From Lachnoanaerobaculum sp. OBRC5-5 (lineage in GTDB: Bacteria > Bacillota > Clostridia > Lachnospirales > Lachnospiraceae): a stretch of DNA of 64,000 bases. A model generated the notes under the pieces. It was given only the letters and a program-made list of their open reading frames with translations. It searched no databases and had not been told where the DNA came from. Both the position numbers and the translations under genes were made by a program. This document shows positions 1,104 to 2,530 of the stretch, in pieces (the first letter of the stretch is position 1; each line of letters opens with the position of its first letter). The stretch is taken from assembly GCF_000296385.1 (NCBI RefSeq), contig NZ_JH815185.1, positions 289,960-353,959 on the forward strand, given 5' to 3'.

Positions 1104-1565
1104 ATGCTCAGAGTATGGTTTGGCGACAGGGATAATGTAATATATAATACATCAGTGTATTTTAGTAATCGGTATAAAGATGGCTGGATTACAGATGATT
1201 TTGCAATGGCTGTTATTAAAGATATTGACAGGTCGGAGGTTTTGGATTCCCATACTATTAAAAGTCCTGTACTTGGACAAATTCCACCGGATAAATTATC
1301 AGGTGGGGTAAAAGCTTTGATTTTAATGAAAAATGAATCAACAAAAACATTTAATGCTTCAAACTGTGGAGATAATTGTGCAAAGTGGATTCTAAAGCTT
1401 GGAAAGGAAAGAGATTTTACCATAGCTTTATATCATATAATGGATTTTGGAAAGAAAGATTTTGAGATTCGTATTCTTAATAATAAAAATAAAAAGCTTA
1501 TTGTACATAATATGAGAGAGTTTTTGGATGTTGCGAATGATTATCTTAAGGGGAAGGTAGAATAA
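1104..1565 (+). CDS. DUF4869-like protein, first gene of a two-gene module
   Basis: 153 aa, soluble, no signal or membrane segment. GGAGGAG at 1092-1098 fixes the ATG at 1104. The N-terminus (MLRVWFGD...), the central P-x-x-LSGG-KAL segment (about residues 61-72) and the FNASNCGDNCAKWIL stretch (about 83-97) fit what I remember of DUF4869 proteins in Lachnospiraceae. No function is known to me. The conserved LSGGVKALILM segment precedes a cysteine pair (GDNCAKW context) that might be structural. The stop overlaps the ATG of the following P-loop protein by one base (TAATG), so the two are very likely made together and may form a complex. Confidence 0.7.
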   Translation: MLRVWFGDRDNVIYNTSVYFSNRYKDGWITDDFAMAVIKDIDRSEVLDSHTIKSPVLGQIPPDKLSGGVKALILMKNESTKTFNASNCGDNCAKWILKLGKERDFTIALYHIMDFGKKDFEIRILNNKNKKLIVHNMREFLDVANDYLKGKVE

Positions 1566-2530
1566 TGATTGGGAAAATACGTATCAAGGTAAGCAACCAA
1601 AGAAACTCTTACGATTTTACATTAAAGCGAAATATTACTATTCTCAGAGGAAATAGCGGCACAGGAAAAACCACATTATATGATATGGTAAGAGATTACA
1701 ATAATTTGGGAAAAGAAAGTGGAGTAAAAATAAGTGGTGGAAAAATTGCTGTATTGGAAGGGAAAAACTGGGAGAGAGAGCTTGATAATTTAGAGAAGAC
1801 TGTTGTAGTGATTGATGAAGGAAGCAAATTTATATCCTCACCTGAATTTGCAAAAAAGATAGATGCCTGTGATAATTATTTTCTTCTTATAACGAGGAAT
1901 TATCTGGAACAACTGCCATATAGTGTGGATGAGATATATAGGATTAAAGGAAGGGGTAAAAATAAGAGTTTAGAAAAAATTTATTTGGATAGAGACAGAT
2001 TTTATGACAATCCGAATCTTAAAAGATTTCCATTTCATCCGGATCTGATTATTACCGAAGACAGTAATTCGGGGAATCAATTTTTTAAAAATGCAGTTAA
2101 AGATATGGGTATAGAATGTATACCTGCAGGAGGAAAGTCCGGTATTAAAAAGCTTCTTGAGGAATATAAAGACTTAAATATTATTGTTGTGGCAGACGGT
2201 GCGGCGATAGGACCTGAAATGGAGAGCCTTGTTAAGGCACAGGAACTAAGCTATGGCAAATTGGCATTGTTTTTACCGGAATCGTTTGAATGGCTGATTT
2301 TAAAATCAGGTGTAATTGGAGAGATAGAAGAGTTAAATGAAACATATAATTATGTGGACAGTACAAAATATAAAAGTTGGGAACAGTATTTTACACATTT
2401 ATTAGTGGAACTGAGTAAAAATGACAAGGCTAAAAAATATAATAAAAGCAGATTGCCGAAGTATTATATACAGCCTATTGTAAAGGAAAAGATACTAAAT
2501 CAGATTCCACATCTTAAACTTGAGCCATAA
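1565..2530 (+). CDS. P-loop ATPase-like protein with possible Toprim-type C-terminal domain
   Basis: 321 aa. Residues about 29-37 (GNSGTGKTTL) are a Walker A motif; VVVIDEG at about 79-85 is a Walker B motif followed by LLITRN, like the D-loop/switch strand of short ABC-type ATPases. The span between them is unusually short (about 45 residues), with no ABC signature seen. From about residue 160, IITEDSNS, a glycine-rich GGKSG and a hydrophobic strand ending VVADG (about 205-218) resemble the Glu, Gly and Asp motifs of Toprim domains as in OLD or DUF4435 nucleases. The Toprim call is inference. It would make this a miniature ATPase-nuclease partner for the DUF4869 protein. Confidence 0.65.
   Translation: MIGKIRIKVSNQRNSYDFTLKRNITILRGNSGTGKTTLYDMVRDYNNLGKESGVKISGGKIAVLEGKNWERELDNLEKTVVVIDEGSKFISSPEFAKKIDACDNYFLLITRNYLEQLPYSVDEIYRIKGRGKNKSLEKIYLDRDRFYDNPNLKRFPFHPDLIITEDSNSGNQFFKNAVKDMGIECIPAGGKSGIKKLLEEYKDLNIIVVADGAAIGPEMESLVKAQELSYGKLALFLPESFEWLILKSGVIGEIEELNETYNYVDSTKYKSWEQYFTHLLVELSKNDKAKKYNKSRLPKYYIQPIVKEKILNQIPHLKLEP

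Follow-up and report, generated by a model that had tools for sequence, protein, structure and literature searches.

A two-gene locus and its relatives

The window, that is, the whole 64,000-nucleotide stretch analysed here, carries two overlapping open reading frames on the + strand. Gene A (1104–1565) encodes 153 aa and gene B (1565–2530) 321 aa; the TAA stop of A (1563–1565) gives its last base to the ATG of B (1565–1567). An earlier note, made from the sequence alone, had described this one-base TAATG overlap, which is borne out, and had called the first gene DUF4869-like. The A product is indeed a member of PF16163 (DUF4869), at 203.8 bits against a cut-off of 28.9 (E = 9e-61). The same note had seen Walker A and Walker B motifs about 45 residues apart in B, and 42 residues lie between them; the Glu, Gly-rich and Asp elements that it had read further downstream occur in that order, as Glu165/Asp166, AGGKS (aa 188–192) and Asp211. 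The features of the locus, with the basis for each in brackets, are:

1093–1099, + strand: GGAGGAG, resembling a ribosome-binding site, 5' of gene A (sequence)
1104–1565, + strand: gene A, PF16163 (DUF4869) protein of 153 aa, proposed signature half (Pfam match, model, profiles)
1296–1313, + strand: LSGGVK, ABC signature motif, A aa 65–70 (alignment, profiles)
1365–1379, + strand: CGDNC, A aa 88–92 (alignment, model)
1434–1436, + strand: His111 of A (alignment, global profile alignment)
1550–1557, + strand: GGGGAAGG, candidate ribosome-binding site of gene B, within the end of gene A (sequence)
1563–1567, + strand: TAATG, one-base overlap of the A stop and the B start (sequence)
1565–2530, + strand: gene B, 321 aa, P-loop domain joined to an acidic Toprim-like domain (open reading frame, alignment, model)
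1565–1990, + strand: B aa 1–142, ABC-type P-loop core without signature or helical subdomain, homologue of the stand-alone B' (model, profiles)
1649–1672, + strand: Walker A GNSGTGKT, B aa 29–36 (sequence, alignment)
1799–1819, + strand: Walker B TVVVIDE, B aa 79–85 (sequence, alignment)
2039–2527, + strand: B aa 159–321, Toprim-like effector domain, homologue of the stand-alone C' (model, hhalign 95%)
2057–2062, + strand: Glu165-Asp166 of B, after predicted strand 1 (91/91 C domains)
2195–2197, + strand: Asp211 of B, after predicted strand 3, followed by Gly-Ala and so not a DxD (91/91)
2288–2290, + strand: Glu242 of B, PESFEW motif, after predicted strand 4 (91/91)
2381–2383, + strand: Glu273 of B, SWEQYF motif (90/91)
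2583–2876, strand not given: insertion-sequence remnant 3' of B (genome comparison)

A scan of 84,980 species genomes returned at least 507 B relatives, from which the best 79 loci were kept; together with one viral contig they form a set of 80 loci that is biased to good B matches. The earlier note had proposed an obligate partner for B, to be checked by how often the two genes occur together. A adjoins B in 78 of the 80 loci, and in the remaining two the contig ends close to the start of B (at 135 bases in L080 and 127 in L131), which supports the proposal. Gene order is A-B in 73 loci, B-A in three (L097, L117 and L122) and A on both sides of B in two (L069 and L136), and B-A order is also found in L018, L026 and L028. 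Where A is upstream, the gap is at most 50 bases in 72 of 75 loci. Tandem and fragmentary copies occur in L069, L070, L114 and L136. In the further set of loci to which L018, L026 and L028 belong, A is present wherever the B match is strong.

Of 195 related genomes, 24 hold B relatives and 27 hold PF16163. The window's genome is close to Lachnoanaerobaculum gingivalis and L. saburreum, its B being 71% identical to that of either species, and the genus is inferred from this identity. Hosts of B include Lachnospiraceae, Faecalibacterium, Selenomonas and Anaerovibrio. When 348 genomes were sampled evenly across the phylum, PF16163 turned up in the window's own genome only; the family is thus concentrated in a few clades. 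One Lachnospiraceae-family genome (G115) has 13 PF16163 matches on many contigs, in two- and three-gene forms. B homologues also occur in three plasmid records (Ruminococcus, Agathobacter and Collinsella), and B relatives in five unannotated metagenomic records of a phage collection. Phages as the main habitat of the pair were considered and rejected, IMG/VR giving 0 loci in a single-protein search and one with an alignment.

More distant relatives, found via A, consist of three genes, A' (~145–180 aa), B' (127–164 aa, P-loop only) and C' (~190–280 aa), which are adjacent or overlapping in the order A'B'C' or C'A'B'. Profile comparison matched A with A' (99.5%), the N-domain of B with B' (98.9%) and the C-domain of B with C' (95.2%, 144 columns). 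By these profile matches the window's B corresponds to a B'–C' fusion, a separate line of evidence for joint action of the three parts. Among 23 distant A'B' pairs, chosen via A', C' was judged by eye to be intact in 11 or 12, and some C' genes may lie beyond the fetched stretch. Neither of two C' proteins scanned against Pfam had a family above the cut-off; PADLOC gave no match for four A' proteins and one of two C' proteins, and for the other C' only Cas2_II (E = 0.006). The separate C' proteins of L212, L214, L217, L221 and L022 have cysteine-rich C-terminal parts that are absent from the fused form.

Complementary ABC motifs in A and B

Searches of Pfam and NCBIfam with gene B returned no family above its cut-off. 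The best PADLOC match was LmuB (E = 2e-5) and the best PDB sequence match the retron Ec83 ATPase (E = 0.042), each in the P-loop half. Residues G29, K35, D84, E85, E165, D166 and D211 are invariant in all 79 aligned B sequences, and G190 and K191 nearly so; with such invariance, the motif residues of B are not due to chance. In VIA-align searches with the AlphaFold2 model of B (pLDDT 92.6), aa 1–142 aligned best with ABC ATPases (Z up to 8.6, with 4 of 999 chains at Z of at least 8), and MutS and AAA+ chains ranked after them. A profile of this region matched one built from 16 ABC ATPases of the window's genome at 95%, though the match is confined to 16 columns around Walker A.

The Walker A pattern occurs in 79/79 B and 19/23 B' sequences, and the signature pattern LSxGxK in 0/79 B ATPase domains and 0/23 B' (0/102 together); a looser pattern, LS[GST]G, is present in four of the 79 B domains. 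For A the counts are 0/74 and for A' 0/25 for Walker A (0/99 together), and 72/74 and 25/25 for LSxGxK (97/99 together). Neither chain alone has Walker A, Walker B and the signature, and all three are present in A and B together. The earlier note had suggested that B may be a reduced ATPase. This is right, but for another reason than size: the half that holds the signature seems to be supplied by the DUF4869 protein, and the lack of the signature from B, with its presence on A, explains the size of B's ATPase.

Three elements of A can be set beside the signature, D-loop and H-switch, names and roles that are general knowledge for ABC ATPases. G67 and G68 of LSGGVK are invariant in the 74 close A sequences, as are C88, G89, N91 and C92 of CGDNC. 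The latter motif sits where the ABC Walker B/D-loop would be and probably serves as the D-loop. His111 is kept in at least 90% of the close relatives and is not conserved in the distant A' proteins; global profile alignment puts its motif, YHIMDFG, opposite the ABC H-switch THEMQFA. In L124 (1686–2495) and L127 (704–1513) the A proteins are 269 aa long, with an N-terminal extension of ~120 aa.

The AlphaFold2 model of A (pLDDT 92.9) has a helix after LSGG, a strand at the Walker B position, a helix, a switch strand, a hairpin and a last helix, which we take to be the order of ABC ATPases. Among the 50 Foldseek matches listed, 48 were proteins of the ABC superfamily, the best being PtuA (8ee4, E = 0.009), and the other two were titled only 'Mitochondrial outer membrane protein'; none of the 50 reached E = 0.001. 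VIA-align gave an ABC ATPase as best match (Z = 5.2, rmsd 4.2, 125 residues aligned), and Z among the matches listed ran from 4.0 to 5.2, where Z of 4–5 is the tool's range for possibly a common arrangement. The model aligns along its length with ABC, SMC, PtuA and AriA heads, weakly but consistently. With scores this weak, fold likeness alone would not support a relation to ABC ATPases; the motifs do.

We also compared A with 65 reference profiles (ABC, AAA_21, two OLD sets, two DUF4435 sets and 59 neighbour-gene clusters). ABC-transporter profiles ranked first (50%) and second (18%), both at the signature, one of the two being a neighbour-gene cluster that was recognised as ABC by eye. The local match between A and ABC spans just 10 columns. 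When A' was added, the best local alignment fell on the same A columns in 5/5 ABC-type references, and the printed alignments pair these columns with the signature-like stretches of ABC, AAA_21, OLD and an AriA-type ATPase; neither A nor A+A' reached a probability of 1% with the signature of AAA_21, OLD or AriA, and in global mode the signature was left unaligned between A and AAA_21.

The sequence and fold scores of A against ABC proteins, each weak, leave some room for a DUF4869 family that is unrelated to ABC ATPases, in which case LSGG would be a loop that fits the motif by coincidence and A would act on its own as a regulator or sensor. We consider this highly doubtful, given that LSxGxK is retained in all 25 distant A' proteins, that the same columns align to all five ABC-type references, that the secondary-structure elements follow what we take to be the ABC order, and that B is without exactly the element that A has. 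The assignment of A and B as two halves of one split ABC ATPase is well supported. From it we infer a heterodimer with a composite ATP site.

The acidic C-terminal domain of B

Residue counts over 79 fused and 12 separate C domains, with one broken C' excluded, showed that E165, D166, D211 and E242 are invariant in 91/91 and E273 in 90/91. In an alignment of 18 of the 79 fused and 11 of the 13 separate C domains, together with one divergent fused form, there were five invariant columns, all acidic. Toprim domains have a Glu after strand 1 and a DxD after strand 3. The model of B has a strand at 161–164, followed by Glu165, so that a Glu follows strand 1 and an Asp follows strand 3, and its predicted order of strands and helices is compatible with Toprim. 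The DxD is not present: D211 is followed by Gly and Ala, and position 213 is Ala in 78 of the 79 fused forms and Gly in one. No Toprim family was above its cut-off in B, OLD-like_TOPRIM (PF20469) reaching 14.3 bits against 23.2 (E = 0.06).

With C' added, the C domain profile placed a nine-sequence DUF4435 (AriB-type Toprim) set first among the 65 references, at 15%; it was the only C domain profile to do so. An hE(N/W/Y)hhL element after strand 4 is common to the C domains and DUF4435. The profile of the B C-domain alone gave OLD and DUF4435 (4 sequences) only 1–2%; against the 65 profiles it gave AAA_21 first (11 columns) and DUF4435 second (12%), and the AAA_21 match is taken to be a chance match at GKS. 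A smaller profile comparison gave the B' P-loop 23% and DUF4435 15%, yet B' had the lower score. The OLD reference set retained 12 of 15 loci and the DUF4435 set 9 of 12, the others being fragments or having no open reading frame over the match. Foldseek (PDB and viral models) and VIA-align runs with whole B matched mainly the P-loop half and were uninformative on the fold of the C domain.

The earlier note had read a possible Toprim nuclease here, from a pattern seen by eye, and had proposed structure prediction of the 321-aa protein as the check. The prediction gives an order of elements that is compatible with Toprim; the P-loop half dominated the comparisons and no solved Toprim was matched. 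The nuclease itself is plausible: element order, invariant acidic residues and the first rank of DUF4435 (15%) speak in favour, and the absent DxD and a receiver match speak against. The best PDB profile match of the C domain was a receiver domain (E = 0.007), and a receiver-like cluster came second among the 65 profiles. These two matches, with the missing DxD, would fit an acidic domain that is receiver-like, or Rossmann-type in some other way, and has no nuclease activity; the module would then be a signalling switch. Such a reading is quite doubtful in our view: the Glu after strand 1, the Asp after strand 3 and the hE(W/Y/N)hhL Glu after strand 4 parallel DUF4435, the first of the 65; the Thr/Lys pattern that we associate with receivers was not seen in the C domain; and there is a further Glu, E273, in 90/91. 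We therefore describe the C-terminal domain as Toprim-like, a Toprim fold being likely but unproven, and do not class it as Toprim. By this likeness, the effector would be a nuclease.

One-sided decay, proposed mechanism and genomic setting

Among the 195 related genomes, 29 near-full-length A genes without stops were counted at E < 1e-25, matches weaker than this being excluded, and one at a contig end was set aside. In the remaining 28, B is intact in 16 and broken or missing in 12. The broken B genes (G106, G073, two in G115, G005, G001, G033, G116, G088:C29 and G056:C64) have stops, truncations or a frameshift; an intact A without any B is found in G056:C39 and G094. None of the 16 intact B genes has a broken or missing A. 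In a second copy in G005 and in G030, A is broken and B is broken or absent. If single breaks follow gene length, the chance of zero A breaks is ~0.009 (hand arithmetic, on genomes that are partly related). Short or split B genes with an intact A were also seen in the 80-locus set (L075, from the same genome as G005, L101, L126 and L140). The 12-to-0 asymmetry suggests that A restrains a costly B effector, and it fits an A protein that does no harm by itself but is required alongside B. G005 holds, at C20 (L282:14063–15762), an allele 93–96% identical to the window pair with internal deletions in both A and B.

The earlier note had suggested a defence or repair module and had pointed to neighbouring defence genes. 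In BLAST clusters over the 80 loci, A is the only gene with a constant position next to B. Families matched in PADLOC at E of at most 1e-10 numbered 219 for the 148 nearest neighbours and 207 for an equal number of proteins that lie 5.5 kb or more away in these loci, a crude count of families rather than proteins; the families listed for the neighbours include Wadjet JetC and JetD, type I restriction and DpdE. With no clear excess, genomic association was dropped as evidence for defence. A repair module gained no support and was set aside, together with a translation factor and a restriction enzyme, since B has no fixed neighbour and no family above cut-off. Of the three plasmid records, only one gives its B homologue a product name, 'translation initiation factor 2' (NC_014825.1, a Ruminococcus albus plasmid), an annotation for which we find no support and which is called into question here.

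We propose, at a probability of roughly 0.55, that a Toprim-like effector is controlled by a heterodimeric ABC ATPase that is split over two chains and has one composite ATP site. B would contribute both Walker motifs, together with an arginine at the switch position. A would be a degenerate ABC half that has no P-loop; it would contribute LSGG(V/C)K as the signature and, probably, the D-loop, and the two would form a heterodimer with one composite site. In the window's subfamily B would also bear, at its C-terminus, the acidic alpha/beta effector, which is probably a Toprim nuclease of the DUF4435/AriB kind; in the more distant subfamilies the effector would be a separate third protein. The A-B ATPase most likely keeps the effector inactive, until a trigger, probably derived from a phage or plasmid, alters the A-B conformation. 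This change would activate or release the effector, which would then cut host or invader nucleic acid, a guard or abortive-infection logic as in PARIS and OLD systems.

A rival reading replaces immunity triggered by infection with a toxin-antitoxin or addiction-like pair. In it, A would bind the ATPase half of B and silence the effector, loss of A would free B, and ATP turnover would set the stability of the complex. The frequency of an intact A without an intact B, with the reverse not seen (12 to 0), fits this arrangement, as do the tandem and fragmentary copies and the standing of the pair on its own, with neither recurrent neighbours nor a clear defence excess. To our knowledge, antitoxins do not usually carry an ABC signature. 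An ABC-type switch with a Toprim-like effector is, moreover, the build of phage-defence systems described in excerpts of PMC12409363 and PMC10568477. We regard an addiction-like pair as possible but unlikely, and infer a defence role for A-B.

The proposed split ATPase can be compared with several known systems. MRP/CFTR-type transporters have heterodimeric ABC ATPases with one degenerate site, and the asymmetric dimer with one working composite ATP site proposed for A-B resembles them; each of their subunits is, however, a full nucleotide-binding domain, whereas A is without Walker A and B without the signature. In Septu, PtuA forms a whole ABC-type ATPase and is partnered by an HNH protein. 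The likeness to Septu and retron PtuA lies in the best Foldseek match of A (8ee4) and the best PDB sequence match of B (the retron Ec83 ATPase), but no HNH partner recurs beside A-B.

In PARIS, according to excerpts of PMC12409363, the Toprim tRNase AriB is kept sequestered by AriA until a phage trigger comes into play. PARIS too comprises two genes, for an ABC-type ATPase (AriA) and a Toprim-type effector (AriB, DUF4435); the AriA-type signature MSDGER lies opposite LSGGVK of A (score below 1%), and DUF4435 came first among the profiles for the effector domain. PARIS has, however, the whole ABC ATPase in one chain and Toprim in the other, whereas here the ATPase is divided and its Walker half fused to the effector. 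As for PARIS markers in the pair, Pfam gave no DUF4435 match, and AriA matched only at the P-loop (E = 0.006).

OLD proteins, as outlined in excerpts of PMC10568477, are single chains that start with an ABC-type ATPase and continue with a Toprim-like domain. B shares this order with OLD of class 1, class 2 (GajA) and class 3 (retron), but is far shorter (321 aa against 521–710 aa for 12 OLD-like proteins from relatives), is without the helical insert and the signature, and stays below the PF20469 cut-off. Unlike in Gabija (class 2 OLD), no UvrD-like helicase recurs beside B in the 80 loci. OLD-ABC modules with several nucleases are covered in PMC12839542, and a divided ATPase is not described in the excerpts of that source.

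ABC and Toprim modules are thus known; an ATPase divided between two proteins, with DUF4869 as its signature half, appears to be new. In the collection of papers searched, none names DUF4869 or PF16163, a mention in the 2020 ABC ATPase classification of Krishnan and colleagues being possible, and searches on split or inactive ABC ATPases and Toprim showed nothing matching among the papers listed. On this reading PF16163, an uncharacterised family, gains a likely fold, job and partner, and an ATPase is predicted with half an active site per protein. At 474 residues in all, the pair would be a very small system for ABC-Toprim sensor-effector logic, mainly in gut and oral Clostridia. We see an even chance for the broader view that the DUF4869 superfamily is a detached ABC signature half, and that these Clostridia hold a large class of modules, so far undescribed and made up of two or three genes, each a heterodimer-only switch with a Toprim-like suicide or invader nuclease fused to or beside its Walker half.

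Within the genus, the pair belongs to a variable region. In G002 the left and right flanks of the window are joined without a 1.88-kb block, most of which is A, B and the insertion-sequence remnant; the block thus varies by presence or absence. The remnant (2583–2876) consists of two insertion-sequence ends that bear inverted CTTCCGTCG repeats and that an internal deletion has brought together, and elsewhere in the window's genome there are copies with ends ~2 kb apart. The pair lies 2 kb from the metK region in the window. In G001, G002 and G003, copies at least 71% identical lie ~12 to 21 kb upstream of that region, with variable gene content; in G005 the copies sit on another contig, flanked by genes of the same families, and G004 lacks them. 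By eye, this stretch in G001 to G004 also holds genes that resemble type I restriction genes, with a recombinase. Inspection by eye of the loci upstream of metK in Lachnoanaerobaculum showed type I restriction-modification-like genes, with a recombinase-like, several specificity-like and a Fic-like gene, in four of six genus genomes (L278, L280, L281 and L283); they were not seen in the corresponding stretch of the window's genome. Across L277–L284, a GNAT-like family of ~136 aa was seen 12 times between differing genes (by eye), and a block of 136-, 206- and 327-aa genes repeats, as if genes had been shuffled by recombination between the GNAT-like copies.
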